From the NCBI GenBank assembly GCA_036172665.1, contig CM069876.1:434001-498000 (forward strand): DNA of 64,000 nt, given 5' to 3'. The DNA comes from Prosopocoilus inquinatus (lineage: Eukaryota; Arthropoda; Insecta; Coleoptera; Lucanidae). How positions within the stretch are numbered: position 1 is the first letter of the stretch; every line of letters starts with the position of its first letter. Made by a program: the position numbers and the translations under genes. The notes beneath the pieces are model-generated. The model searched no databases. It saw nothing but the letters and a program-made list of their open reading frames with translations, and was not told the origin of the DNA. Below are positions 18,768 through 64,000 of the stretch, in pieces.

Positions 18768-21700
18768 CAGTGGCGGATCGTCGGGGCGGGCAAGGTGGGC
18801 TGTGCCCACCCTGTCCTATGAAGTTGCACGTTCCGGTTCCTCCTCCGGGCAACCCCGAAAAACTAATTTGTTTGGAAACTGCACCCACTTTCCCTTTTGC
18901 AGTTATTGTTAAATCGTCCATTGTTTTTTGGTGAAAAGCGTTGGAAAGACGAGAAAATTCTCTGTAAAGCCCCCGCTTAAATTGAATTAAAAAATTACAA
19001 GCGCGATCGTTAGGGGAGGGAGAGAGGTTCATTTAACTGACCAACTAAAAGTACGTCGCTTTTGAATTTTGTTTGATTGTAATCCAAGAATGCGTTCTTC
19101 GATTATTTTTTGGTAAAAGGCGTTGGAAAACTGAGAAAAATCTCAGTAAACCCTGCACCTAAATTGAATTCAAAAATTATAAGCTCGATCGCGAGAGAGA
19201 TCACAAGTGCAATCGTGAGGGGAGGGAGAGACGTTCAGTTAATTGGGCAAATAAGAAACGCGTTGCTTTCGAATCTTGATTGTAATTCAAGAACGCCGAT
19301 TTTTTTTTGCTAAACGGCGTTTTAAAGCTGAGGAAAAGCTCTGTAAATGCCCCATTTAAATAGAATTCAAAAATTACCAGCGCATTCGGGACGGGAGGGA
19401 GAGACGTTCGTTTCGTTTTTTGAATATTTATTGTAACCCAAGAATGCGTTCGTCGATTGTTTTTTTGGTAAAAAACGTTGGAAAGCTAAGAAAAAAACTC
19501 AGTTAATTCCGTGCTTGGTTAAATTGAATTCGAAAATTATAAGTGTAATCGCGACGGGAGAGAGAGACGTTCGTTTAATTGAACAAACAAAAAAAACGTC
19601 GCTTTTGAATTGTTATTTGTTATTGATTCGAAAATTACAAGTGCAATCGCGAGGGTAAGGAGAGACGTTCAGTCAATTGAGCAAATACGCGTTGCATTTG
19701 AATTCTTTTTTTATCTCGAGAACGCGTTCGTCGATTGTTTTTTAGTGAAAAGCCTTGGAAAGCTGAGAAAAGGCTCTGTAAATCCTCTGCTTAAATTGAA
19801 TTCAAAAATTATAAGCGCGATCGCAAGGGGAGGGAGAGACGTTCAGTCAATTGAGCAAATACGCGTTGCTTTTGAATTTTTTTTATATCTCGAGAACGCG
19901 TTCATCGATTGTTTTTTAGTGAAAAGCCTTGGAAAGCTGAGAAAAGGCTCTGTAAATTCTCTGTTTAAATTTAATTCAAAAATTACAAGAGCGATCGCGA
20001 GGGGAGGGAGAGACGTTCAGTTAATTGACCAAATAAAAAACGCGTCGCTTTTGAATTGTGTTTGATTGTAATCCAACAATGCGTTCGTCGATTTTTTTTT
20101 GGTAAAAGACGTTGGAAAGCTGTGAAAAATTTCAGTAAATCTCGCGCCTAAATTGAATTCAAAAAGCATAAGCGCGATCGCAAGGGGAGGGAGAGACGTT
20201 CAGTCAATTGAGCAAATCCGCGTTGCTTTTGATTTTTTTTTGTATCTCGAGAACGCGTTCATCGATTGTTTTTTAGTGAAAAGCATTGGAAAGCTGAGAA
20301 AAGGCTCTGTAAATCCTCTGCTTAAATTTAATTCAAAAATTACAAGCGCGATCGCGAGGGGAGGGAGAGACGTTCAGTTAATTGACCAAATAAAAAACGC
20401 GTCGCTTTTGAATTTTGTTTGATTGTAATCCAAGAATGCGTTCGTCGATTTTTTTTTTTTGGTAAAAGACGTTGGAAAGCTGTGAGAAATTTCAGTAAAT
20501 CTCGCGCCTAAATTGAATTCAGAAATTACAAGCGCGATCGCGAGGGGAGGGAGAGAGGTTCGTTTAATTGAGCAAATAAAAAACGCGTCGCTTTTGAATT
20601 TTTATTGTAACCCAAGAATGCGGTCGTCGATTGTTTTTTGGTAAAAGACGTTGGAAAGCTGATAAAAAGCTCAGTAAATTCCGTGCTTAAATTGGATTCG
20701 AAAATTACAAGTGCAATCGCGAGGGGAAGGAGAGACATTCAGTCAATTGAGCAAATACGCGTTGCTTTTGAATTTTTTTTGTATCTCGAGAACGCGTTCA
20801 TTGATTGTTTTTTGGTGAAAAGCGTTGGAAAGCTGAGAAAAGGCTCTGTAAATCCTCTGCTTAAATTTAATTCAAAAATTACAAGCGCGATCGCGAGGGG
20901 AGGGAGAGAGGTTCGTTTAATTGAGCAAATAAAAAACGCGTCGCTTTTGAATTTTGTTTGATTGTAATCCAAGAATGCGTTGGTCGATTTTTTTTTGGTA
21001 AAAGACGTTGGAAAGCTGTGAAAAATTTCAGTAAATCTCGCGCCTAAATTGAATTCAAAAATTACAAGCGCGATCGCGAGGGGAGGGAGAGACGTTCGTT
21101 TAATTGAGCAAACAAAAAACACGTCGCTTTTGAATTTTTATTGTAACCCAAGAATGCGTTCGTCAATGGTTTTTTGGTAAAAGACGTTGGAAAGCTGAGA
21201 AAAAGCTCAGTAAATTCCGTGCTTAAATTGGATTCGAAAATAACAAGTGCAATCGCGAGGGGAAGGAGAGACGTTCAGTCAATTGAGCAAATACGCGTTG
21301 CTTTTGAATTCTTTTTGTATCTCGAGAACGCGTTCATCGATTGTTTTTTGGTGGAAAGCGTTGGAAAGCTGAGAAAAGGCTCTGTAAATCCTCTGCTTAA
21401 ATTTAATTCAAAAATTACAAGCGCGATCGCGAGGGGAGGGAGAGACGTTCAGTTAATTGACCAAATAAAAAACGCGTCGCTTTTGAATTTTTATTGTAAC
21501 CCAAGAATGCGTTCGTCAATGGTTTTTTGGTAAAAGACGTTGGAAAGCTGATAAAAAGCTCAGTAAATTCCGTGCTTAAATTGGATTCGAAAATTACAAG
21601 TACAATCGCGAGGGGAAGGAGAGACGTTCAGTCAATTGAGCAAATACGCGTTGCTTTTGAATTTTTTTTGTATCTCGAGAACGCGTTCATCGATTGTTTT

Positions 21701-22711
21701 TTAGTGAAAAGCCTTGGAAAGCTGAGAAAAGGCTCTGTAAATCTTCTGTTTAAATTTAATTCAAAAATTACAAGCGCGATCGCGAGGGGAGGGAGAGACG
21801 TTCAGTTAATTGACCAAATAAAAAACGCGTCGCTTTTGAATTTTGTTTGATTGTAATCCAAGAATGCGTTGGTCGATTTTTTTTGGTAAAAGACGTTGGA
21901 AAGCTGTGAAAAATTTCAGTAAATCTCGCGCCTAAATTGAATTCAAAAATTACAAGCGCGATCGCGAGGGGAGGGAGAGACGTTCGTTTAATTGAGCAAA
22001 CAAAAAACTCGTCGCTTTTGAATTTTTATTGTAACCCAAGAATGCGTTCGTCAATGGTTTTTTGGTAAAAGACGTTGGAAAGCTGAGAAAAAGCTCAGTA
22101 AATTCCGTGCTTAAATTGGATTCGAAAATTACAAGTACAATCGCGAGGGGAAGGAGAGACGTTCAGTCAATTGAGCAAATACGGGTTGCTTCTGAATTTT
22201 GATTGTATCTCAAGAACGCGTTCGTCGTTTGTTTTTTGGTAAACGGCGCGGCGTTCGAAAGCTGAAACAAAGCCCTGTAAATCACTCACTTATATCAAAT
22301 TCCAAAATTACAAGTGCAATCGTGAGGGGAGGGAAAGACGTTCAGTTAATTGACCAAATAAAAACGCGTCGCTTTTGAATTTTGTTTGATTGTAATCCAA
22401 GAATGCGTTCGTCGATTTTTTTTGGTAAAAGACGTTGGAAAGCTGTGAAAAATTTCAGTAAATCTCGCGCCTAAATTGAATTCAAAATTTAAAAGCGCGA
22501 TTGCGAAAGGAGGGAGAGACTTTCAGTTAATTGGGCAAATAAGAAATGCGTTGCTTTCGAATCTTGATTCAAGAACGCCTTCGCCGATTGTTTTTTGGTA
22601 AACGGCGTTGGAAAGCTGAGAAAAAGCTCTGTAAATCCCCCACTTAAATGCATTCACTTTCCCTTTTTCAGTTGTTGCCCACCCGCAGTAAATCAACACT
22701 AGCCGCTCCTG
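18768..22711. mobile_element. Non-autonomous hAT-like element filled with a satellite array
   Basis: The left end starts CAGTGGCGGATC and the right end, read inverted, CAGGAGCGGCTA. Both tips lead into a GGGCRRG.TGGGC block, as in hAT terminal repeats. An identical 8-bp sequence, ATCGCTTT, flanks the element at 18760-18767 and 22712-22719. Eight bp is the target duplication length of the hAT superfamily. The 3944-bp element has no transposase; its interior is about 21 tandem copies of a ~180-bp unit. Long open frames on both strands across the array are a by-product of the near-multiple-of-three period, and I do not regard them as genes. Confidence 0.8.
18990..22640. repeat. ~180-bp tandem array, about 21 monomers, with higher-order structure
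   Basis: Each monomer has the ordered words GTAAAAGRCGTTGGAAAGC, TCAGTAAATCYC, GCGATCGCGAGGGGAGGGAG, RCGTTCAGT and GCGTYGCTTTTGAAT. Monomer spacing is about 172-184 bp. Subtypes alternate: the AACCCAAGAATGCG subtype occurs at 20611, 21147, 21500 and 22035, spacings 536, 353 and 535 bp, that is three-mer, two-mer and three-mer higher-order units. The left monomers are more diverged than the central ones, as expected if the array grew by unequal exchange in the middle. Confidence 0.85.
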
Positions 22712-49205: not shown

Positions 49206-50204
49206 ATGGCTTCACACGAGTCGGTTGTCAAACAAAGCACTAATAACAAAACCTGTAGAAGGTGCAAGCAGACGGCCTTGTCAGGCCTTAAGTGTATTTG
49301 TTGTGGCTCCATATCGCATAACAGTTGTGTTGAACTTCTAAAAAAGGAAAAAAATATCACTGTTATTGATTCTATATCTATAAATTGTTGTGAAAGTGTG
49401 GAAAACAAAACTAGTGAAGTGCACATGCGCAATGAGCTAAGTAAGAAACAGCACCACCAGGACTCAAATGACGCCCAGGCCGTTGAAATTCTGTATCTTA
49501 AGGAGCTATTGAAACAAAAAGACTTGGTAATTTGTAACCAACAAGATTCTATTAATTGTCTCAAGCAACAAATTACCTTACTGTGCAACATTCACGATTA
49601 TGTGATTCCATGTGATAATCAGGATATAAATCAACCTATCTCCATTGAAAAAGTCCAAAGTTCCAAAACAAAGATAGATAAGCCATCATACGCAAATTCA
49701 TTAAAAGCGACGAAAACCCGTTCCGTGCTCGAAGCACAGCCTATCAACAATAACAAAAACAAGTCCTTGGCAAAAAATATAAACACGTGTATTTCGCCGG
49801 ACCTGCAAGTAAAAAGAGTAAATACGAAAGAAGCATCTGCCAACGCACCCACTATTAAGAATGCTAAATCGAGAATAAAACCAGTAATTGGATCCAATAA
49901 AACGGTGACGGCTGCAGCAGCGCTTCCGAAAAAAGGGTATTTGCATGTTTACCGAATGCAACCTGACACCACCGTGGACTCATTGCAAAATTTCCTGAAA
50001 ACTTCCGCGCCCTCCATCAATTTTGTATGTGAACAGCTGAAAAATACGGAAATCTCTTCATCTTTCAAAGTTGAGTTCCCCATCGAGCAGTTGCAGCAAG
50101 CGTATGACCCAGAAATTTGGCCAGCTGGAGCTGCAATCAAAAGGTATTTCTTCCAGAAGCCAAAAAATTTTCAGAAAACGCCTCAAGCCTCGTCGGCGCG
50201 GTAG
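49206..50204 (+). CDS. LINE ORF1 protein with PHD-like zinc finger
   Basis: An intact frame of 332 codons. Residues 16-45 hold paired Cys motifs and a His (CRRC, CICC, SHNSC) with the spacing of the PHD/RING-like finger seen in ORF1 of several CR1- and jockey-type LINEs. Residues ~90-130 (LYLKELLKQKDLVICNQQDS onwards) look like a coiled coil for multimerisation. The remainder is lysine-rich and then ends in a small folded part. The expected role is an RNA-binding chaperone packaging the LINE transcript. It overlaps the following endonuclease ORF by 88 bp in another frame. The ATG at 49206 follows an older LINE relic directly, so this element's 5' end is near 49200. Confidence 0.75.
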   Translation: MASHESVVKQSTNNKTCRRCKQTALSGLKCICCGSISHNSCVELLKKEKNITVIDSISINCCESVENKTSEVHMRNELSKKQHHQDSNDAQAVEILYLKELLKQKDLVICNQQDSINCLKQQITLLCNIHDYVIPCDNQDINQPISIEKVQSSKTKIDKPSYANSLKATKTRSVLEAQPINNNKNKSLAKNINTCISPDLQVKRVNTKEASANAPTIKNAKSRIKPVIGSNKTVTAAAALPKKGYLHVYRMQPDTTVDSLQNFLKTSAPSINFVCEQLKNTEISSSFKVEFPIEQLQQAYDPEIWPAGAAIKRYFFQKPKNFQKTPQASSAR

Positions 50205-51124
50205 GATCTGCGAAGACAACTTTTCAACTAATTCAACTCAACGCTCAATCGCTGTTTAATAAAATGGACCACCTTGACTTGTTGATAAAAGATTACAACC
50301 CAGATGTAATCTGCATCCAAGAGCATTGGTGCAGCAGTGAAACGATAAGCCTAATGAATCTCCCTGATTATGAAATTAAAGTCCATTTTTGTCGCAAAGA
50401 GCACAAATGTGGCGGAGTGCTGATATTCATTAAATCGGAAATCAATTCTTTTCCGATAGATCTTGACATTTATTGTATCGAGTTACATTTTGAAATTTGT
50501 GCCATCAAAATATCTGTGGATGAATTACAACTGTGCATCATTAATATATATAGACCCCCCAGTGGTAATCTCCTGACTTTTTTTGATAACTTTTCCTCAG
50601 TCTTAACTAAATGTAATTCTTTTGCATCCAACTTGTTTGTTTGCGGAGACCTTAACATAGACTATTTAAGCAACTCCACAGCTCGTCAGCTACTAAGTGA
50701 TCTGATTGATAGCTTTGGCTTAAGCATTACAAATAGCCAACCAACAAGAGTATGTACTAATATAAATAACAAAACTTGTTCGTCCAAAATCGACTATATA
50801 ATTACAAAGGCCCACCATCTAAAAGCATGTACTTCAGTTGTAATTCACCCCAACTTAGGTGATCATAACGCATTACTTTTAAGCCTCAATACAACCTCTG
50901 TACCTCCCAAAACTGTGAATAAGCCCGTACCTGTATATTGTCGTACCGTTAACAGCGCATCCCTAGATTTACTGCGGAAGCTTTTAGCCGAGCTTAACTT
51001 CAATTATTGTTACACAATTCGTAGCCCTGAAAATGTCGATGAAGTTTTTAACACTTTCATGAGCGAACTACGTCGCGTAATTGACGCATCACTGTTCATT
51101 AAAAAAACATTAAAAAAACCATAC
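50117..51124 (+). pseudogene. LINE ORF2, endonuclease domain, cut off by an LTR retroelement
   Basis: The frame encodes an APE-like endonuclease: FQLIQLNAQSLFNK (Asn block), DVICIQEHWC (catalytic Glu), NIYRPPSGN, LFVCGDLNID (Asp/Asn pair), SKIDYIITK and LGDHNALLLS (terminal Asp-His). All expected catalytic blocks are present. The expected RT domain is missing because the minus-strand LTR retroelement begins at 51125; the open frame runs on into LTR sequence and stops at 51271, so the last ~48 codons are not LINE protein. The rest of ORF2 should lie beyond the right edge, after the element's other LTR. The LINE looks young because both ORFs are open up to the insertion. Clade: jockey/CR1 group by ORF1 type and endonuclease blocks. 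Confidence 0.8.
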
Positions 51125-52022
51125 TGTAGACCGGGCTGCCCTTCTTTACTGGACATTAGTTTTTGGTTGGGGGATATTAACTCGCATTGCAGCACAGTCT
51201 ACTGTAGGGGGGCCGATTTATTACAGGTGAATTTAAGGTATTTTCGCTGCCACCAAGTGTCTTTGAATTAGGACACTGAATAAAATCATTACAAGGCCAG
51301 AGGCGTATGAGTTCTTCCAGGCTTAAAGAACTGTATACAGTTATTTCTTTGTCTTTTTTTGTAGTTACACGTAATTAAAGTCAGTGCTACAGATTAAAGT
51401 ATATTGAAGGAAATGAAAACGTACAAGGGAATATCAAATGTTATCCACTTATTACATCATTACGACAGTACCTGATATTTGAAGGAAAGACTCCCCTCTC
51501 CGTTTGAGGACTCCGCAGCAGGATTTTTCTTGGAGTTACTCTCAGGTCGGGTTCTTCCGTTCTTTTTGGATTCACTCAACCATCACTTTCAATTAGTTAC
51601 AGGAAAAATAAATGAATAAAAACCACAAGAGTCAAAAAGGGCTAGCGAATCATGTGTATACTTGAAGAGTAAGCAACGAACATTGACTGTTTTCTTTCTC
51701 CGAGGGGGTCATACAGCCTGCATCTTATCTCAAAATTACGTCAAAATTCACCCAGTGACTGCTGTCACCTGACGTATCCCGTCTGAACTACTCTTTTTGC
51801 GTGGGTCGAATTACATTCCACTGGGTTTAATTCCCAGGCCACAGCAAGAGAAAAAAAAATGTTATCACACTAATGTTTAGTCTCGGGCACGGCAAGTCCC
51901 TGATAAAAAGAATTTAGACATTCGCAATTTAGATTATTTTACGAGCCATTAAAAAGGAATACGTCAGACTTATTTAGTAATTAAGAAATTATACATTAAG
52001 AGTAAAATTCCGGCTGTTTACA
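51125..52022 (-). repeat. 3' LTR, 898 bp
   Basis: In element orientation it begins TGTAAACAGCCGG next to the polypurine tract and ends CCCGGTCTACA. TG...CA ends are canonical. An AATAAA polyadenylation signal in sense orientation lies at 51217-51222, near the 3' end. Its last 283 bp match 63718-64000 apart from one base. Confidence 0.9.
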
Positions 52023-53003: not shown

Positions 53004-55034
53004 TCAGTTATCATCCTTTCGTCGCCAATCTCTTTCGGCATCACTCTTCTCTAACGTGGGATACAACTGTTTTGATGCATCACGTTTCGTCTCTTCTTCC
53101 ATTCTCCCGGTTGAGTTAACGTTTCTGTTGTGTTTGCCCGCATTTTCCATCTCAATTTCTGCACTTTCAGTACTTAATTGCTGTTTTTGGTCTTTGGGTT
53201 CTTTTGTATGGTGTCGGTGTACCCAAAACATTGTAACGCTGTCCAGTATTGCTCCTATGAGTCTGAAACTCCAACCAAAAATTTCGTATATCATCACTCC
53301 ATGAATTAGGGTGTCTATTAGGAATTTAATTGCTTTCCCGATGACGTATAATCCCATCAAGCCAGATGTGATAGTTCCTAAAGTAGTGATCCATGAGTAC
53401 AGTGTACCCCATGCTTTTGTCAACCAGGACTTTACTGTTTCTTCATCGATGAGTTGATCGAATGTTGTCCCTTGTTTATCTGTTGATATCCCCATCATTC
53501 CTCTCGTAATGATACCCTCCACAGCTTGTCTTTCAGACGGTAGTATCAAATGTTGTTGAAGCCTTTCCATATCCTCTTGAGAGTATAACCCTCCACTAAA
53601 TAGGTTATTCGGATTGACATAGGTCCATTGATGGTCACTCGTGGGCTCCAATATTTGTGGAATAGGAATCTCATGAACGCCTTGTATATATTTATACCAC
53701 TTTTCATTCAATTTGTAGGCAGAATATAGGAATGGGTTACATCCGGTCTCGGTTCCAAATTTCTGTAACACATGATTTCTGGGCGTCATAAACATGGTTT
53801 TATTATCATATATCACAGGCAGTTCTTTGTAACATCTGTCAGTACGTCTCACCGAAACTTCTACAGGTAGACACTGGATGATGTGAACTATTTCTCCGTA
53901 GTTAACAGCTGTGTACCCTGGTACTTGCATCTTTGCGAAAGCGAATGCCTCCGGTGCTATTATGGCTAGGGTCTGTAAATTCCTTAAGACTTGTTGTTCA
54001 AGAGCACACTTGTGAGCGATAACATCGGCGTATAAGGCAGAAACTTGGCCTTGTATGTGCCTCTCAACAAATACTACTTTCGCGTTAGTATATGCTGTTG
54101 GATCCATGGTTAAGACGTTAAGAGTTGTTCTTTTGAAGTAAAACTTCCCATTCTCAGAGGGTTTGACGACGAAAAACTTTGGGTGATCGGTTTCGTAGGC
54201 TGATTGTCCACAAATCATTGTTGGTCTAGAAACAGGCATAGCAAATACCGTTTGTCCTCGATCAACCGAGTAAATGACAGTTCCTTGCCCTGATACCTCT
54301 CCACTGGGTATTAATTTATCCGCCGGTCCTTCATATAATACTGTATATTTCCTCTCTGAACACTGACTGTCGTCAACATGCTCCCAGTAGGTTTCACCAA
54401 ATACGGAATCAATGCAAGCTTTCCCCTTGTATGGGCATTGAATTCCTCCCGGAAGGTGGATTTCATTTTCCCCTATCTTCGCAGGCGAATAGCGTTGGTA
54501 CAAGGAAATTTCCAATGCAGCTTGTACGATCACATCGTCCCAACGTCCTTTATGGTCCTCATACGAGCTTCCTAGGCAACTGCTTTCTCCCGTCATCCTT
54601 CCTGCCATTAGGACTGTCGCTTGAGTAGTTCCATTGATAATTAGCTGATCGATATTCTTACCATAAAAACTCAGAAGACTTCGGGTTAAATGCATTTCCT
54701 GGCATCTTGCTCGACCTATTGGGTGTATATAGGTAGCAAGTCCATTAAGGGTAGCAGACATATGTGAATGCATACCACAATGGGATATCAATCGGGTTAC
54801 GTGAATCTTACACTGGATAACAGGCAACATCTCTAATTCATTCACCTGGAGTAGTTGGATCTCTTCTCGATTGGATTTGATCTGAGATGGCGGGTCCTTA
54901 CATCTGCCGATATCGATTAGACTGAAACTAGTCAAATTCATCCTCTGATTTTGACAATCGTAAGCTATGATGGAGAGAACTGGTTCGAACAAAAGGATAA
55001 CTGTCAGAAGCACTATTAGGTTTGATTTCACCAT
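53004..55034 (-). CDS. Envelope-like glycoprotein, chuvirus-like type
   Basis: 676 residues. A signal peptide spans about residues 1-22 (hydrophobic LIVLLTVILLF, then VLS). The ectodomain is rich in Cys (27, 45, 75, 86, 111, 153, 200, 207 and others) with N-glycosylation sequons near 33, 134 and 411. Near the start are AYDC, SLIDIGRC and, at 86-91, CGMHSH, words I associate with glycoproteins of jingchuviruses and of insect retroelements that captured such genes. Hydrophobic segments at ~546-575 and ~580-603 form the membrane anchor, followed by a ~70-residue charged cytoplasmic tail. The only Arg-x-x-Arg word noted lies at 396-400, not before a fusion-peptide-like stretch, so the baculovirus-F-type env of classical gypsy errantiviruses seems unlikely. 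The ORF is intact. It is presumably made from a spliced RNA. Assignment to the chuvirus group rests on motif memory only. Confidence 0.6.
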   Translation of the reverse strand: MVKSNLIVLLTVILLFEPVLSIIAYDCQNQRMNLTSFSLIDIGRCKDPPSQIKSNREEIQLLQVNELEMLPVIQCKIHVTRLISHCGMHSHMSATLNGLATYIHPIGRARCQEMHLTRSLLSFYGKNIDQLIINGTTQATVLMAGRMTGESSCLGSSYEDHKGRWDDVIVQAALEISLYQRYSPAKIGENEIHLPGGIQCPYKGKACIDSVFGETYWEHVDDSQCSERKYTVLYEGPADKLIPSGEVSGQGTVIYSVDRGQTVFAMPVSRPTMICGQSAYETDHPKFFVVKPSENGKFYFKRTTLNVLTMDPTAYTNAKVVFVERHIQGQVSALYADVIAHKCALEQQVLRNLQTLAIIAPEAFAFAKMQVPGYTAVNYGEIVHIIQCLPVEVSVRRTDRCYKELPVIYDNKTMFMTPRNHVLQKFGTETGCNPFLYSAYKLNEKWYKYIQGVHEIPIPQILEPTSDHQWTYVNPNNLFSGGLYSQEDMERLQQHLILPSERQAVEGIITRGMMGISTDKQGTTFDQLIDEETVKSWLTKAWGTLYSWITTLGTITSGLMGLYVIGKAIKFLIDTLIHGVMIYEIFGWSFRLIGAILDSVTMFWVHRHHTKEPKDQKQQLSTESAEIEMENAGKHNRNVNSTGRMEEETKRDASKQLYPTLEKSDAERDWRRKDDN

Positions 55035-55429: not shown

Positions 55430-58400
55430 TTAAAAGGATTGGATTATGATAATGAAAACAAATATACAAGTTATGTATATTATATTCATGGGGTTAAAAC
55501 TTTTACTTTTCCTTTCAGGTTTCACAGATTCCTTTCTGTCACGGTACTCATCCTCAACGATATCCAAAAACTCATCCTCAACTCTGTCTAGGTACTCATC
55601 CTCAACAACGAGTGTTTTTGGCATGACCCACGGTTGGGTTTCTACAGGGCCTTTACTCCTTGTCCCGTAGCGGTGTTCGTTGTCAGTGGATGGTTCGGGT
55701 GGTTTGCTATTTTCATTATCTCCTTGGATCTGCTCCCTTTCTTGCTGATCTGCTGTTGGTTCTATCGGTTCTTCTTCATCCGTCCCGACATCATCAGCAC
55801 TACTATTACTCACCAAATCTGGCGGTTCTTCGTCTTGTAGCTGATGGTCTTCGGGAATTTCATCCAAAGCATTTGGGTTAAAAATTACCACTCGTTGCCT
55901 GACCGGTTCTTCGTTTAATGATACCGGGGTTCCTATCCATGGTTCTATTTCTTCTGTTGGAGGGTTCATGACATTTTCCTGCGGGAATTGTGGTGGCTCT
56001 CCACCGAAATACACTCGTTCCAATTCTTCTAGGTTTCCAGGAATTCTAGTGTCTTCTTCCGACTCTATTTCTGACTCTGGGCCGCTCGAGTCCTCTGATG
56101 GTGGGGCATCCTCCTTGTCTTTTTGGTTTGGAGGTGCCGATTGAACGTCTTCACTATCTTCATACCACTTTAACCGGTTAACATGAACTATTTGTTCTTC
56201 ATTTCTGCCTATTTTGGAGATTTTGTATGTTACTGGACCTATCCTTTCCATTATTCTATACGGTCCTTCCCACTTCTTACTCAACTTTCTTGTCAAACCT
56301 GGTTTTACGGCTGGGTTGTACAGGTAGACCTTATCTCCTAGTTGAAATTCAGTAGGTCTCGTCTTCTTATTGTACTGTCTTTCCCTTTGTCCTGCTGATT
56401 TCTTCAGTTTTTGGCGAACGACTTCGAAGGTAGAATTCAGTCTTGCGACTAGTTCTGATGCATAATTTTCGCTGTAGTCATATCGCTGTCTTGTAGAAGT
56501 GAGCTCGTCATCGTTAGGCAACCTCATATCTCTTCCGTGGAGCAGAAAATAGGGTGTCTCTCCGATGGATGAGTGGATGCTGGCTCGGTAGGCCATTAAC
56601 ATGTATGGAATCCACTTGTCCCAATCTCGTTGTGACTTTGAAACATAATGAGACAACATATCTTTAAGTACACGGTGTGTTCTTTCTATCATTCCGTTGC
56701 TCTGGGGATGGTAAGGAGTTGTTTGAATTTTCTTAATGCCCAAAATTTTGCAGACATTTTTCATTAGTTCCGATACGAAGTTGGTTCCTTGGTCTGTCAA
56801 CAACTTTCTTGGCACTCCGTGTCTAGCGACGATATTCTCTACAAATGCTCGAGCTACAGTGTCCGCTTTCTGGTCCGGCAAAGGTATTGCTTCCGGATAC
56901 TTCGTAAAGTAGTCTTGGAATGTTAATACGTATTTGTTACCTTGATCTGTAGTAACTAGCGGTCCCACTATATCCATAGCTGTTAATTCGAACGGGTACG
57001 TCACTTCGCAAAACGGTTGCAATGGGGCTGGTCTCCTGTTGGTAGGTGTTTTTCGTGCATTACAGGAATGACATTTTTGGACATAATCCTTGACGTCATC
57101 TTCCATGTTTTTCCAGTACATCCGCTCTTGTAGGAGTCTTAAGGTCTTTGGTACGCCTTGATGTCCTGCGTATGGTAGGTCATGATAATCGTGAATGCAC
57201 TGTTTTACCAATTTCTTTGGAATGACAATTCTGTCATTTCTTTCCCCACCTCGTCTAACTCGGAATATAACTCCGTCCTCGTCGATGTAATACGGATCCT
57301 CCATTTGCTGTTCTTGTATTTGACCACGTAGTTTCTGCAACACTGTATCTTGCCGTTGTTCTTTTCCTATGGCTTCTTTGTTCAGGTATGGTATGGGTGT
57401 TTCTTCAACATCAACTCGACTCCTTTTCAGAATTGGATGCGTTTCAACTTCTTGTTGTACTATTTCCTGAGGCTGGCTTATTCTGATCGGTTTTTTTCTT
57501 CGATCTTGTTCTCTGGTTTTTCGTGCCCATTCTTGATATTCTTTATATCCTTCCGTCTTTTCTCGACCCAATTGCGAGAAGGTTCTCTCGTATTTACGAC
57601 CTCCTGGTTCACTATCGCTGAGATCTTCGTCGTGTTTCTTGATTTTGACTTGAACATCAATTGGAACTGTTACGTTTCTAGCTTCCCATTTAGGGTTCAC
57701 ACTTCCCTTACTTTTCTTCAGGATTTTCTTTTGATCATTATTAACTTCTCTCTTCCCAAGTTCTTTAGGCGAAGTTACTATAGCTTTCCTTCTTTCTTCG
57801 TATACAACCTCGGTGATTTCATCCACCACTTCTATTTCTCGTCGTACCTTTCGATCTTGCTCCTTTTTTAAGGCATCATTTAATATATGGAGGTTTGTCA
57901 TTCGTCTTTTCTTCTCTGGTCTTACTTCATGATCCTCATTTCCTTGAAATTCCTGTTTTTGTTGTTGCTCTCCAACCTTTGGCAACCGACTCATGGCATC
58001 AGCGTTGTTGTTTTTCGTTCCTGGCTTGTACTCTATAGTAAAGTTGTATTCCGACAAGAGCAAAGCCCATCGGGCTAATCTCGATGTTGGGTCTTTTAAT
58101 GAGAACAACCATTTTAACGGTCTGTGATCCGTGTAGATGGTAAATTTCGTCCCGTAGAGGTAACATCTGAAATGTTTAATAGCCCAAACAACTGCTAAGC
58201 ACTCCTGTTGAGTCACGTCGTAATTTCGTTCGGCTTTGTTGAGTTGTCGGCTGGCATAAGCTATAGGTCTTTCATATTTACCTTCCTTTTGACTTAGCAC
58301 AGCGCCGATAGCTGTTCCAGAAGCATCAGTAGCCAGTATGAACGGTTCCTCAAAATTAGGGTATTTCAGGACTGGTGGACTGCAAAGCCTTTCTTTTAGG

Positions 58401-61081
58401 TATTCAAACGCGTCCTCTTGTTCCTGTGTCCATACTAACTCAACATCCTTCTTCGTGAGCGATGTTAAGGGGATTGCCTTGTGTGAAAACTCTGGGATAA
58501 ATTTCCTATAAAATCCCACTAATCCTAGGAACGCTCTTACGTCCTTCACATTTCTAGGTCTCGGGTAATTTTTTACGACACTCAATTTTTCAGGGTCAGG
58601 TTTCACTCCTTCTTCGGATATTACATGTCCCAAATATTTAGCTTCTCTTGCTAAAAACTTACACTTTGACGGCTTCAACTTTAAATTGGCTTTCCTGAGC
58701 CTTTCAAACACCTCGGTCAACCTTTCCAAATGTTCGTTTAGTGTTTTGCTAAACACGATGATATCGTCGAGGTATACCAAACATTTGTCCCCTGTCAGTC
58801 CCGACATCACTGAATACATTAGTCTTTGAAAGGTGCTTGGCGCATTTGCCAATCCAAACGGCATTCTTAGGCATTCATAGTGACCATCGGGAGTTGAAAA
58901 TCCTGTTTTCTCCCTATCCTTCGGGTCTACCTCTACTTGCCAATATCCGCTTGCCAGATCCAACGTGGAAAAGAACTTTGCATTCCCTAGTTGATCGATA
59001 GTCTCCTGGAGGTTCGGTAATGGGAAGTAGTCTCGCTTGGTGATGGAATTTAGTGCCCTGTAGTCTATACAGACGCGAATTTTATTCTCACCTTCTGCGG
59101 CTTTCTTCTTTACCATAATTACCGGCGCACTCCAAGGAGAGGAGGACTCTTTAATCACTCCCTGCTCTATCATTTCTCCGATCTGGTTTTGGAGCTCCTT
59201 CCGCTGACTGTATGGCACTCTGTACGGCGCTTTGGTTATAGGCGGCACTTCTTCTGTGATAATCTTGTGCTTCACCTCGTGCGTGCATCCCAATTTCACA
59301 TCTTTTCCCATAAATATGTCGCCGTACGTTTGCACTAAATTGAGCAGCTTGTCTTTTTCTTCTCTTCTTAGGTGTTCAAGTTCTAGCTTTTCTAAAATCC
59401 CAGCTTTCTTCAAATCTATCTTGTTTATAGTGACTCGTCTTTTCTTTCTTTCTTCTAAACGTTGGTTCACTTCAATTTCTTCACTGTAGGCAACTATCGT
59501 GTTCTTAGGTATCCTCACCTTCTCGTTGGTGATATTCATGACGCAGACTGGCACTTCACGTCCGGCTTTTGAAACTGTTCGTGCCACTATAAGTCCGTGG
59601 ATTAGCATATGAGCGGGTTCTAGCATTATATCTTGCTCAGAGGGGTACCTCCTCTGCACAGCCACACATACCATTTGACATCTTGGAGGAATATCTGTCG
59701 TGTTCTTAATTCGGACTTGGCAGCGACCAACTACCTTATCCGGATTATCAATCGTCATTGGTCGTGACGAGCGTAATCTGTGATCTTCTCCTAGAGTCTC
59801 CTTTTTTATATCTTTCCTAACTTTTCTTCCGCTTTTACGTTCATTTTCCACTTCTTTACACATAGGCAACATTATATTCCTTTCGGTTTGTCTTTCCAAT
59901 ACGTCACTTGCATTTTCCTTTCCTTGCCTATTGTCTTTGAACACATAGACTACGATGTTTATTTTTGTTCCCACGAACACATTTTCTATCATTTTGCTAA
60001 CCACTTTCCAGTTTAATCCATCTAGTCCGCACCCTATCCTAGGCATCGCTAACTTCCGGACTCTGTTCTGTAGACAGTGATCCCGTAGACAAACTAATGC
60101 CTGTTCTAAGGACTCGTAAGTGGGTTTTTCGTGACTTCGATTCTTGGTTACAAGATAATACTTAAACCTGTACTTTCCATTTGCCAAGTGGTCTTGCAAT
60201 ACTGCTATCTCTCCGACTAGAGCATTTTGCCTTCTCAAAACTCCAACCTGTCCAAATCTTTGTTTGAACTCTAGTGCGATACCCTTATTCATGTGGAGAT
60301 CTCTTGCTACACACTGGACTAAGGAGTATTCCTTCGGAGCTGAGAATAAATCACCATAAACTTCCTTTATTTTAACCCGTTTTTGCTCAAACTTTTTATC
60401 GTTTTCACGAACTTTCCTTTCGCACTGTTCCGGTTCTAATTTTACTTTTGCCGTCGATTTTTCCTTTCCCTGTTTCACAACATCACTATAGCTGGGCTTT
60501 CCCCTTTCCTTTCCTATTTCAGAAAATCCCTTTTTTCTATTGTTTATCCTTTCCTGTTCTTGCTTTCTTAGCTCTTGAACTTCTCTGTTGCCTGGCTGCA
60601 TTCTTCGATCCCGGTGTTGAGATTCTGTAGATCTCTCAGATTCTGTAGATCTGTGGTGCGGTCTTCGAAGATTAGCCTTCTTTCTTCTAGACATGGTTTT
60701 CCAGCCTTCTTCTTGGCGTAGGGCGTAAGTGTCGTCGTATCCCTGATTGCTTAAATCGTTATGACTTAATAGCTCTATTTTTTCTCTTCCTAGCCTGAGG
60801 ACATTTTCCCCATAGTCGACTGATGCGCTGTTGGCTTGAAGAAAGTCTCTACCAAGGAGGCCATCCACTTTCAGGTTAACGGAATCCGAACATATCATGC
60901 ATTTGGTATCGTAAGTCCGATTCCCTACTCGGAATGGTAATACGATGGATCCCAAACATGGCTCTTCATCTCCTGAAATTCCTCGGAAAACCACTTGCGG
61001 TTCTGGTTTAGTTCGGGCCCCGATTCGCCGAATAAACTCTTCTTTTAGTATGGTCAAAGAGGCGCCTGTATCCACTAGCAT
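55430..61081 (-). CDS. pol: Pol polyprotein with protease, macrodomain, RT, RNase H and integrase
   Basis: 1883 codons are open from the first Met. The frame continues upstream without a stop into the gag 3' end (about to 61210), so Pol is expected as a Gag-Pol product by -1 shifting. Domains (residues from that Met): aspartic protease with DTG at 4-6 and GLLGRDF at 74-80; basic linker; macrodomain at 238-392; a beta-rich pre-RT part at ~440-535; RT at ~608-800 with MPFGLANAP and YLDDIIVF (770-777); RNase H at ~915-1030 with Asp919, Glu960 and Asp985; a charged ~200-residue spacer; integrase zinc finger (His1300, His1307, Cys1337, Cys1340); integrase core Asp1370, Asp1430, Glu1466; GPY/F module with WEGPYRI at 1604-1610; acidic Pro/Glu-rich tail with three VEDEYLDR-like repeats; and a final hydrophobic stretch. 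All catalytic residues seen are intact. No chromodomain. Confidence 0.93.
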   Translation of the reverse strand: MLVDTGASLTILKEEFIRRIGARTKPEPQVVFRGISGDEEPCLGSIVLPFRVGNRTYDTKCMICSDSVNLKVDGLLGRDFLQANSASVDYGENVLRLGREKIELLSHNDLSNQGYDDTYALRQEEGWKTMSRRKKANLRRPHHRSTESERSTESQHRDRRMQPGNREVQELRKQEQERINNRKKGFSEIGKERGKPSYSDVVKQGKEKSTAKVKLEPEQCERKVRENDKKFEQKRVKIKEVYGDLFSAPKEYSLVQCVARDLHMNKGIALEFKQRFGQVGVLRRQNALVGEIAVLQDHLANGKYRFKYYLVTKNRSHEKPTYESLEQALVCLRDHCLQNRVRKLAMPRIGCGLDGLNWKVVSKMIENVFVGTKINIVVYVFKDNRQGKENASDVLERQTERNIMLPMCKEVENERKSGRKVRKDIKKETLGEDHRLRSSRPMTIDNPDKVVGRCQVRIKNTTDIPPRCQMVCVAVQRRYPSEQDIMLEPAHMLIHGLIVARTVSKAGREVPVCVMNITNEKVRIPKNTIVAYSEEIEVNQRLEERKKRRVTINKIDLKKAGILEKLELEHLRREEKDKLLNLVQTYGDIFMGKDVKLGCTHEVKHKIITEEVPPITKAPYRVPYSQRKELQNQIGEMIEQGVIKESSSPWSAPVIMVKKKAAEGENKIRVCIDYRALNSITKRDYFPLPNLQETIDQLGNAKFFSTLDLASGYWQVEVDPKDREKTGFSTPDGHYECLRMPFGLANAPSTFQRLMYSVMSGLTGDKCLVYLDDIIVFSKTLNEHLERLTEVFERLRKANLKLKPSKCKFLAREAKYLGHVISEEGVKPDPEKLSVVKNYPRPRNVKDVRAFLGLVGFYRKFIPEFSHKAIPLTSLTKKDVELVWTQEQEDAFEYLKERLCSPPVLKYPNFEEPFILATDASGTAIGAVLSQKEGKYERPIAYASRQLNKAERNYDVTQQECLAVVWAIKHFRCYLYGTKFTIYTDHRPLKWLFSLKDPTSRLARWALLLSEYNFTIEYKPGTKNNNADAMSRLPKVGEQQQKQEFQGNEDHEVRPEKKRRMTNLHILNDALKKEQDRKVRREIEVVDEITEVVYEERRKAIVTSPKELGKREVNNDQKKILKKSKGSVNPKWEARNVTVPIDVQVKIKKHDEDLSDSEPGGRKYERTFSQLGREKTEGYKEYQEWARKTREQDRRKKPIRISQPQEIVQQEVETHPILKRSRVDVEETPIPYLNKEAIGKEQRQDTVLQKLRGQIQEQQMEDPYYIDEDGVIFRVRRGGERNDRIVIPKKLVKQCIHDYHDLPYAGHQGVPKTLRLLQERMYWKNMEDDVKDYVQKCHSCNARKTPTNRRPAPLQPFCEVTYPFELTAMDIVGPLVTTDQGNKYVLTFQDYFTKYPEAIPLPDQKADTVARAFVENIVARHGVPRKLLTDQGTNFVSELMKNVCKILGIKKIQTTPYHPQSNGMIERTHRVLKDMLSHYVSKSQRDWDKWIPYMLMAYRASIHSSIGETPYFLLHGRDMRLPNDDELTSTRQRYDYSENYASELVARLNSTFEVVRQKLKKSAGQRERQYNKKTRPTEFQLGDKVYLYNPAVKPGLTRKLSKKWEGPYRIMERIGPVTYKISKIGRNEEQIVHVNRLKWYEDSEDVQSAPPNQKDKEDAPPSEDSSGPESEIESEEDTRIPGNLEELERVYFGGEPPQFPQENVMNPPTEEIEPWIGTPVSLNEEPVRQRVVIFNPNALDEIPEDHQLQDEEPPDLVSNSSADDVGTDEEEPIEPTADQQEREQIQGDNENSKPPEPSTDNEHRYGTRSKGPVETQPWVMPKTLVVEDEYLDRVEDEFLDIVEDEYRDRKESVKPERKSKSFNPMNIIYITCIFVFIIIIQSF
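59906..60370 (-). other. TARG1/OARD1-like macrodomain inside Pol
   Basis: Residues ~238-392 of Pol. Visible blocks: GDLF, SLVQCVARDLHMNKGIALEF (ADP-ribose loop 1), GEIAVL, YYLVTKNRSHEKPTYESL, AMPRIGCGLDGLNWKVV and INIVVYVF. This order and wording match the ALC1/TARG1 class of macrodomains (terminal ADP-ribose protein glycohydrolase, human OARD1) much better than MacroD, viral or histone types. The family's catalytic Lys is present (VTK, Lys313, codon at 60143-60145) and so is its catalytic Asp (GLD, Asp354, codon at 60020-60022). The expected activity is hydrolysis of ADP-ribose from acidic residues, of O-acetyl-ADP-ribose, or of ADP-ribosylated nucleic acid. Position between protease and RT suggests release by the element's protease. 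Confidence 0.85.
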
Positions 61082-61167
61082 TGCAGCTACGTGACCTCGT
61101 ACTTCCGGTAGGACAATACACTGATTTCCTTCCTCTTCGACCGTATACGTGTGTGGGAGCGTAATTT

Positions 61168-62553
61168 TTAATTTTTGCGATTGGGTCCTTTGACCTCGGG
61201 GTTCAGCAAAGGACCTCTGAAGTTTAAAGAATTCTTGAAATTCGGTCGTGCACTCCCTTGATAAGATGTTCTTGGTGGATTTACTCTTTCTCTACACTCA
61301 GGAGCATAGTGTCCCATTCTCGAACACTTGAAACACTTTACTTGTTTCTTAAATTCTTGCTGTCTTCTTTCGTCATATCTCGGGTAATAATTAGGTTTCC
61401 TTTCTTGGTAATTATTATTTCCGTAATTCCTCCCGTAGTTCCTTGCGTATTGCTTTTGACGGTTTGTGTTTACTTGAGAAGAAACTTGTCGGCCTGGGGC
61501 TCCATTTGAGTGTTCACCTTGGTATGTCACTCTCCTTGAATGCTCGTTCCTATTCGCTTCTGTCTGTGGTTCTTCCCTTCTAACCGTTGTTCCTCTTGCT
61601 CTTTCATTATATTGCATGCCTTCTTCGTCCGCGAACTTTTCTCCTTCGGGAAATCTATTGTTCCTAATAGGAAATCTGTTGTTCCTGCCTTCTGGGAGAT
61701 AGTTGGTTGCTTCGGCATATCGAGTTCTTTTTAAATATTCGGGTCGGTAATCCCTTCGACTACTTGTGTTTTCCTCATAATAAAATATTTCCTCCGGGTT
61801 TTCTTCTTCTAAATTTTCTGTTTCCTGATTTGTAATGTAGAGGTCGTTCAGCCTCCTCATTTGCTTCAGCATTCTCCCGCTCGTTTCGGCTTGTTGGGCG
61901 AGTTCGATTATTTCTTGGAGAGCCATCTGGGGATTTCTGTTTAGATCCAAAATAATCATCTTCATTAATTCTTGGTCTAAACCTCTTTTCAACTGTTCCG
62001 CCAAATCTCGCTGATGGCGTTTGATAACAGCTTCTCTTTCCGCCTGTTGGTTTGGTTCAACGAGAGCCAGGTTTTCTTCTAGGAGCTTTTTTCCTGCTCT
62101 CTTAACACGGATTGAGAAATTCTCTACCCCTTCACGAGGTGCTTGTGTACATCGTTGGAGCATTAAATATGCTTCGCCTGGTAGTATCTTCCGATCATAA
62201 CGCTTCGTCAAGGCTGCTTTAAAATCAGCGTATCTTAGGTCAGACGATAGCAGATGAGATTCCAGCTCAATATATCGAAAGGCTTCTCCTTTTAATTGGT
62301 ATCTTGCCACTGCCAGGGTTTGTTGCTCAGTCCAAGCGTCGATATCCGCTCTTTGGCGTAGCTTCAGAAAGAATTCTCGTATGTTTTCCCCAGGTTTTCC
62401 CGAAAACTCTGGTAGGCCCACAAGGGTCTGCCCAATAGTCCTAAGACCAGTTAAGTCCATTGCCGGTGGTTGTTGCATATTATTAATGCCATCCACAGGG
62501 AGAATAACTGCTTCATGTGTAATGTTATCCGCCGCACTTGCTTCTTCAGCCAT
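61168..62553 (-). CDS. gag: Gag protein with one zinc knuckle
   Basis: 461 residues, start ATG at 62553. Residues ~35-235 form a retrotransposon Gag capsid-like region (GLPEFSGKPGENIREFFLKL, then AFRYIELESHLL and FKAALTKRYD). After a low-complexity Arg/Asn/Tyr/Gly-rich stretch (265-400) comes a CX2CX4HX4C zinc knuckle, CFKCSRMGHYAPEC at 407-420, for genomic RNA binding. The stop at 61168-61170 is preceded by CGC AAA AAT TAA; the pol frame is -1 relative to gag, and C-AAA-AAT just before the stop is a plausible though non-canonical slip site. Gag forms the particle core and would supply Gag-Pol by frameshifting. Confidence 0.9.
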   Translation of the reverse strand: MAEEASAADNITHEAVILPVDGINNMQQPPAMDLTGLRTIGQTLVGLPEFSGKPGENIREFFLKLRQRADIDAWTEQQTLAVARYQLKGEAFRYIELESHLLSSDLRYADFKAALTKRYDRKILPGEAYLMLQRCTQAPREGVENFSIRVKRAGKKLLEENLALVEPNQQAEREAVIKRHQRDLAEQLKRGLDQELMKMIILDLNRNPQMALQEIIELAQQAETSGRMLKQMRRLNDLYITNQETENLEEENPEEIFYYEENTSSRRDYRPEYLKRTRYAEATNYLPEGRNNRFPIRNNRFPEGEKFADEEGMQYNERARGTTVRREEPQTEANRNEHSRRVTYQGEHSNGAPGRQVSSQVNTNRQKQYARNYGRNYGNNNYQERKPNYYPRYDERRQQEFKKQVKCFKCSRMGHYAPECRERVNPPRTSYQGSARPNFKNSLNFRGPLLNPEVKGPNRKN

Positions 62554-63717: not shown

Positions 63718-64000
63718 TGTGGACCGGGCTGCCCTTCTTTACTGGACATTAGTTTTTGGTTGGGGGATATTAACTCGCATTGCAGCACAGTCTACTGTAG
63801 GGGGGCCGATTTATTACAGGTGAATTTAAGGTATTTTCGCTGCCACCAAGTGTCTTTGAATTAGGACACTGAATAAAATCATTACAAGGCCAGAGGCGTA
63901 TGAGTTCTTCCAGGCTTAAAGAACTGTATACAGTTATTTCTTTGTCTTTTTTTGTAGTTACACGTAATTAAAGTCAGTGCTACAGATTAAAGTATATTGA
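63718..64000 (-). repeat. 5' LTR, 3' part (runs off the window)
   Basis: The 283 visible bases match 51125-51407 except for one substitution near the inner end (63721 vs 51128). By homology the LTR should continue to about 64615. Confidence 0.92.

Follow-up and report, generated by a model that had tools for sequence, protein, structure and literature searches.

Several retroelements are known to carry a captured enzyme of nucleotide or nucleic-acid upkeep. The dUTPase of non-primate lentiviruses lies between RNase H and integrase. An AlkB-type N6-methyladenosine demethylase was captured by orchid Ty3/gypsy elements and is reported to be active in vitro (PMC9289625). Open reading frames (ORFs) with a macro domain are known from fish endogenous retroviruses, a finding credited to Basta et al., 2009 (PMC4977317). 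Among macrodomain enzymes, TARG1 (OARD1) is reported to remove ADP-ribose from Glu and Asp residues and from phosphates at DNA and RNA ends, and the macrodomains of Venezuelan equine encephalitis virus and of the severe acute respiratory syndrome (SARS) virus are called MacroD-like in the same source (PMC6582358). Here we describe a complete TARG1/OARD1-type macrodomain that lies in frame within the intact Pol of a Ty3/gypsy element, in a 64,000-nt stretch of the genome of the beetle Prosopocoilus inquinatus (contig CM069876.1, positions 434,001 to 498,000; the whole stretch is called the window below).

The locus resembles each of these systems in part. It shares with human TARG1 the fold, 49–51% identity (Foldseek rows), the Lys and Asp pair and the GCGLD and KPTY blocks; TARG1 is, however, a small stand-alone host enzyme, whereas the domain described here is an intronless internal part of a retroelement polyprotein. 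The teleost epsilon-like endogenous retroviruses likewise gained a macro domain, but as they are described it sits in additional ORFs and not inside Pol. The lentiviral dUTPase and the orchid AlkB are also captured upkeep enzymes, of different chemistry, and AlkB is described as an additional ORF. Alphavirus and coronavirus macrodomains are virus-borne ADP-ribosyl hydrolase folds too, but MacroD-like, whereas the Pol domain is TARG1-like. We found no description of a macrodomain in a Ty3/gypsy Pol within PubMed Central full text under an open licence, to which the literature search was confined (no subscription journals, preprints or Repbase).

Identity and Fold of the Macrodomain

A query piece covering 59879–60400 (P0001) matched the Pfam Macro profile at 2.4e-6, above the cut-off, and human OARD1/TARG1 at 4.6e-39 over residues 10–153, which correspond to 59942–60373. 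An initial annotation of the window had placed a macrodomain at 59906–60370, right to within 12 codons. Its further description of the domain as complete and in frame between protease and reverse transcriptase (RT) agrees with a Pol ORF without internal stop, the TARG1 match and the order of the Pfam domains. In a sequence search of the PDB the top matches were five human TARG1/OARD1 (C6orf130) sequences at about 5e-39, with other macrodomains at 5.4e-9 or weaker. An AlphaFold2 model of the domain had a mean predicted local distance difference test score of 91.5 (44 OARD1-like proteins were part of the input alignment), and the best eight PDB rows obtained with Foldseek were all human C6orf130/TARG1 entries, led by 4j5s (E 1.9e-18, template modeling scores 0.77/0.96). 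In both sequence and fold the domain is far closer to TARG1 than to other classes of macrodomain, which supports the TARG1-type assignment of the initial annotation. The E-value, the quality of the model and the recurrence of the domain across many copies exclude a chance match.

The Foldseek results also separate the domain from the MacroD type: the best alphavirus row ranked 36 with 14% identity, and no coronavirus was among the 50 rows listed. In BFVD, the model matched Kadipiro virus VP8 (51% identity), thrips-associated flavi-, negev- and virga-like viruses and iridescent viruses. These insect viruses share a predicted TARG1-like structure with the Pol domain; they differ in being RNA or large DNA viruses that are not reverse-transcribing and in the gene context of the fold.

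The blocks KPTYESL and PRIGCGLDGLNW are present in the Pol macrodomain, as are Lys313 and Asp354. These two residues had been singled out in the initial annotation and are the right ones, since in the alignment they fall opposite the catalytic pair of TARG1: once an offset of 6 is added, the matching chain residues of 4j5q are what we take to be the catalytic Lys84 and Asp125 of human TARG1. The lysine of the KPTY block was ruled out as the Lys84 counterpart, as the alignment gives the preceding lysine of “LVTK” (Lys313). Both residues are present in 58/59 host OARD1-like rows.

We assign a probability of roughly 60% to the reading that this is a selected macrodomain in the Pol of a young element, acting as a mono-ADP-ribosyl hydrolase that stems from an old capture and undoes host ADP-ribosylation. 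Being a part of Pol, the domain would travel with the enzymes of reverse transcription and integration and be on hand at the sites of cDNA synthesis and insertion. Its substrates would be ADP-ribosylated acidic residues on proteins of the element or the host, ADP-ribosylated phosphate ends of the element's nucleic acid, or both, and the net effect would be to undo the host ADP-ribosylation response to retroelement cDNA or to integration breaks.

Copies of the Domain in the Same Genome

The 649.6 Mb genome was searched with P0001, and the best 150 of 1305 candidates were scored. This yielded at least 150 macrodomain matches, all with E 1.4e-34 or better. Within the best 150, the window family accounts for 12 rows at 87–100% identity, seven of them in open frames of 1947–1953 aa, and a second family, F2, for 17 rows at 59–65% identity, nine in frames of 1914–1916 aa. 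The other rows are more distant than F2, and one further family has frames of 1764 aa. The context was read with flanks at 47 distinct loci (L009–L058 less three repeats). The order protease-macro-RT was seen at 33 of these and integrase-macro at nine; the remaining five had protease-macro-RNase H without an RT match (L017 and L032), protease-macro with no RT match in the stretch (L037 and L048) or macro-RT without a protease match (L036). The 1764-aa family has protease-macro-RT at three loci (L102–L104). Thus, the domain is present in several families of this genome and in two kinds of Pol position. The assumption that it is peculiar to one element did not hold, given at least 150 matches in several families, with two Pol positions here and a third elsewhere.

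Three macro-bearing copies of the 1764-aa family (G000:C5:47386723, 47398205 and 47409687) are spaced by exactly 11482 bases, and perhaps form a tandem array of elements.

Lys and Asp were scored in 87 loci, 84 from the best 150 rows and three from a separate genome search. The Lys is present in 87/87, the Asp in 85 of the 86 loci that cover its site and both in 85/86, compared with a mean majority share of 63% per column; these loci are not independent, because most are near-copies within families. The sole exception for Asp, L038, is a copy with a stop.

Relatives Outside This Genome

Relatives were sought with a Pol piece (residues 200–1000 scored), and the best 120 of 4620 proteins were taken. 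With a TARG1-family profile (clear, E < 1e-12; weak, up to 1e-3), 41 of the 120 have a clear and five a weak macrodomain, a share that is not a frequency as the macrodomain itself raised the scores. Only two of the clear domains have the order protease-macro-RT (P0139 and P0187), while 22 lie between RNase H and integrase (the order that P0175 has) and 17 at the C-terminus beyond integrase. Both residues are found in 35 of the 41, Lys in 38 and Asp in 36, at a mean majority share of 47% per column. P0139 is 73% identical to the window element in RT, 40% in the macrodomain and 34% in the protease. A Pol-derived profile greatly improved the matches of P0247 and P0255, and it was the only one to list a trace in P0228.

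The occurrence of the same domain at three places in Pol argues for an activity and not for a position, in favour of the hydrolase. In a rival reading the domain is an ADP-ribose reader: it would bind mono- or poly-ADP-ribose and tether Pol or integrase to PARP-marked chromatin or breaks, thereby guiding integration, with catalysis secondary. A parallel would be the chromodomain that ends the integrase of chromoviruses and is credited with guiding integration. In line with such a role, the domain lies beyond integrase in 17/41 clear outside domains and at 9/47 own-genome loci, and P0139, P0254 and decayed RNase H-macro-integrase copies retain a macrodomain without the full pair; it is for the C-terminal class and the pair-less lineages that a reader has most in its favour. 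The window class, however, places the domain before RT, far from integrase, and the Lys and Asp columns rank with the best conserved ones, both residues being kept in 85/86 own-genome loci, which exceeds what a mere reader would need. We regard a reader role as unlikely.

We consider it more improbable still that the domain is a structural or regulatory insert of Pol (a spacer, a dimerisation element or a determinant of cleavage timing) whose enzyme residues are retained by inertia or for fold stability. The pair-less, decayed macrodomains of P0221, P0241, P0247 and P0255 resemble a domain that has outlived its activity, but an insert of this kind fits poorly with three different positions and with a selective retention of Lys and Asp over other columns.

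Other searches covered viral contigs and annotated proteins. No relative was confirmed in viral contigs searched for the macrodomain and for RT. A protein search with the macrodomain alone gave 231 proteins at E <= 1e-5, of which the 120 listed were all short, fused Pols being outside its reach. Among proteins of ~550–1750 aa there were 14 macrodomain matches, none with RT in the Pfam column, and the ten of them that were inspected all looked like host or other fusions. In P0128, P0133 and P0135 a TARG1-type macrodomain occurs together with DNA ligase domains (PF01068 and PF04679). The insect OARD1-like host proteins P0122, P0124, P0125, P0126 and P0131, from Athalia, Asbolus, Periplaneta, Cryptotermes and Callosobruchus, are long, and by eye have low-complexity N-termini and extra macro-like or other sequence C-terminal to the macrodomain.

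Selection on the Macrodomain

Between the window family and F2, the nonsynonymous and synonymous divergence of the macrodomain was dN 0.224 and dS 1.27, giving a dN/dS of 0.18 (bootstrap 0.06–0.29) and an uncorrected pN/pS of 0.32 (0.23–0.42). Three more pairs from these families gave 0.19, 0.18 and 0.22, and the three pairs among L049, L050 and L051 gave 0.21, 0.31 and 0.21. For comparison, dN/dS was 0.10–0.12 in the protease, 0.03 in RT where it differed, 0.46–0.51 in the protease-macro linker and 0.26 in the macro-RT linker; the RT of one L049–L051 pair had a ratio of 0.02 at a dS of 3.04, near saturation. The macrodomains of L041 and L054 gave 0.16 at a dS of 2.68, with an uncorrected pN/pS of 0.46 (0.36–0.56) vs. 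0.18 for RT. For L009 and L049 dS was saturated in the macrodomain, and the uncorrected pN/pS was 0.43 vs. 0.11 for RT. In 5/6 groups of outside Pols, percent identity is no lower in the macrodomain than in the protease (e.g., 52 vs. 52, 51 vs. 49 and 50 vs. 33%), with RT at 59–80%. Judged from these comparisons, the macrodomain is under purifying selection that is weaker than that on RT.

That the domain is a passive passenger, a segment of a host gene caught by chance and unselected, is hardly credible. The absence of the domain from many Ty3/gypsy relatives (74/120 listed) agrees with it, and nothing further does, whereas the open frame in diverged lineages, the ratios of 0.18–0.31 and the pair intact in 85/86 loci all speak against it. 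A neutral passenger is not supported, given the constraint on the domain between families. Lack of a macro fold, loss from other copies and neutrality had been named in advance as outcomes that would count against the initial annotation, and none was seen in this genome.

One window-family/F2 pair, L009 and L022 (C8:492379-495900 and C1:39144076-39147558), has RT DNA that is identical over 192 codons (dS 0) vs. a macrodomain dS of 1.27. Identity rises from 66 to 100% where RT begins (~2600 in oriented L009), which points to recombination between families or to an exchange of modules.

Origin of the Domain

The initial annotation had suggested the gain of a host or host-like hydrolase. The OARD1-like gene region of this genome (C5:3750200-3755700, L105) has macrodomain exons split by introns, and retroelement domain profiles gave no match in its 5.5 kb. 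One of its exons is 65–68% identical to two beetle proteins and 49–54% to those of cockroach, termite and fly. In local alignments the window domain is 43–48% identical to the host exons; with the OARD1-like proteins of a fish (55%) and of five other insects the values are 46–59%. As the host exons are no closer than the proteins of other insects, the capture either is old or happened in a different host. These values do not support a recent capture from the present host. The domain probably descends from an animal TARG1/OARD1 gene through an old capture.

In a tree of RT-RNase H from the window element and 116 of the 120 relatives, the window element pairs with P0139 (Shimodaira–Hasegawa-like approximate likelihood ratio support 99). 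The 17 C-terminal-macro elements fall into a clade of 15 (98) and a separate pair (97); elsewhere macro-bearing elements are interspersed with macro-less ones. Macrodomain trees were built with 10 and 12 rows left out (long branches and duplicates) and with thinned hosts (every third OARD1-like row plus the fused ones, then every second). They support a C-terminal group (100/99), a mainly RNase H-macro-integrase group (97/91) that also holds the protease-macro-RT members L041, L054 and P0187, and a window/F2 group (99/97) placed, without resolution, near insect host genes. A single origin of all Pol macrodomains was not rejected by the approximately unbiased test (p 0.253 and 0.333). Enforcing one clade gave p 0.548 for the window element with P0139, 0.074 for all protease-macro-RT rows and 0.099 for all C-terminal rows including L039. 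The trees are compatible with either history: a single captured domain may have shifted from one Pol position to another, or the domain may have been captured several times.

Implications for Host ADP-Ribosylation

Several observations weigh against a hydrolase that undoes host ADP-ribosylation. The seven between-family dN/dS pairs (0.18–0.31) are non-independent and amount essentially to two family contrasts, dS above ~1 is poorly estimated, and L049–L051, whose open frames are short, may have undergone some decay. In young within-family copies the macrodomain ratios range from 0 to 2.7 on very few changes. The sixth outside group, with decayed macrodomains, falls below its protease in identity (33 vs. 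37%). At the His site of the SLAHC block, the youngest window subgroup (the window copy L009 and L010–L013) has Gln, whereas His is found in the other listed loci covering the site and in 58/58 host rows covering it. Outside this genome, one or both of the paired residues are missing from 6/41 clear macrodomains, and both are present in 0/5 weak ones. In P0139, the nearest listed outside relative, the Lys is kept, but Asn stands at the Asp site and the GCGLD loop is gone; one or both residues are likewise missing from several RNase H-macro-integrase elements (P0221, P0241, P0247 and P0255). Some lineages thus do without catalysis. Finally, 74/120 listed relatives have no match to the TARG1 profile, so that the domain is not essential for Ty3/gypsy replication.

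On balance the interpretation in the initial annotation is partly supported, in the TARG1-type fold and kinship, the retention of Lys and Asp and the purifying selection on the domain. The domain may, as proposed there, serve evasion of PARP-based restriction or the processing of ADP-ribosylated intermediates. Viral macrodomains are a main argument for antiviral ADP-ribosylation in vertebrates. A selected, catalysis-ready eraser in the Pol of insect retroelements, present in many copies, points to ADP-ribosylation acting on reverse-transcribing elements too, and its conservation at three Pol places suggests that ADP-ribose marks are of consequence in the conflict of hosts with mobile DNA. Insects have few PARPs. 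More tentatively, and as something possible rather than probable, ADP-ribosylation could be a general restriction layer against arthropod long terminal repeat (LTR) retroelements that is answered by a TARG1-type Pol eraser, through several installations or moves between the three sites, with the TARG1-like insect RNA and DNA viruses reflecting the same pressure. The question is testable with a small recombinant domain. Some insect genes annotated as OARD1-like may also be pieces of mobile elements.

Organization of the Element

Table 1. Features of the macrodomain-bearing element, in window positions.
Feature	Position	Strand	Evidence and remarks
3′ LTR	51125..52022	-	Outer edge: TG..CA ends; inner edge inferred from purine tract then TG; by eye
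Chuvirus-type envelope-like glycoprotein	53004..55034	-	Pfam Monjiviricetes_fusion 2.1e-205, profile positions 5-652 of 653
Pol frame	55430..61291	-	Open, 1953 aa; first ATG 61081; -1 frame relative to Gag
Integrase, H2C2 zinc finger and catalytic core	56705..57223	-	Pfam Integrase_H2C2 4.3e-21, rve 4.4e-14
RNase H	58136..58432	-	Pfam RT_RNaseH_2 4.3e-41
RT	58619..59110	-	Pfam RVT_1 1.6e-38
TARG1/OARD1-type macrodomain, between protease and RT in Pol	59942..60373	-	Human TARG1 (PDB) 4.6e-39; Pfam Macro 2.4e-6; AlphaFold2; Foldseek
Asp354 codon	60020..60022	-	Aligned with chain residue 119 of 4j5q
Lys313 codon	60143..60145	-	Aligned with chain residue 78 of 4j5q
Aspartic protease, Pfam-matched part	60842..61081	-	Asp_protease_2 8.2e-10, profile positions 12-90 of 90
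Gag with CCHC zinc knuckle	61168..62553	-	ORF; zf-CCHC 3.2e-4
5′ LTR	63718..64000	-	Interrupted by window end

The element lies on the minus strand and extends from an LTR at ~51125–52022 to a second LTR that starts at ~63718 and crosses the window end (Table 1). Gag, the Pol order protease, RT, RNase H and integrase, and the paired LTRs are those of a Ty3/gypsy (Metaviridae-type) element; candidates for the tRNA primer site and the polypurine tract were read by eye only. Counted from the ATG, the Pol ORF (55430–61081) encodes 1883 aa without an internal stop, and the protease probably starts upstream of that ATG. The two LTRs have 0 mismatches in 279 compared positions from 51129 on, and one mismatch (51128) if the edge is set at 51125. 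The insertion is young, because the LTRs are identical over these 279 positions.

The initial annotation had called the Ty3/gypsy Pol otherwise standard, which is correct for protease, RT, RNase H and integrase; in one detail the element departs from this, as it has an extra ORF encoding a chuvirus-type glycoprotein. Glycoproteins of Jingchuvirales with LTR-Gypsy fragments have been reported in insects (PMC10084718).

LINE-like ORFs (LINE, long interspersed nuclear element) lie on the plus strand at 49206–51124. The second has an endonuclease domain (Exo_endo_phos 1.9e-14) and ends against the LTR edge at 51125, so that the element was apparently inserted into a LINE copy. Elsewhere in the window, 19622–22656 is a tandem array with units of ~174/353 bp and 80–83% matches.

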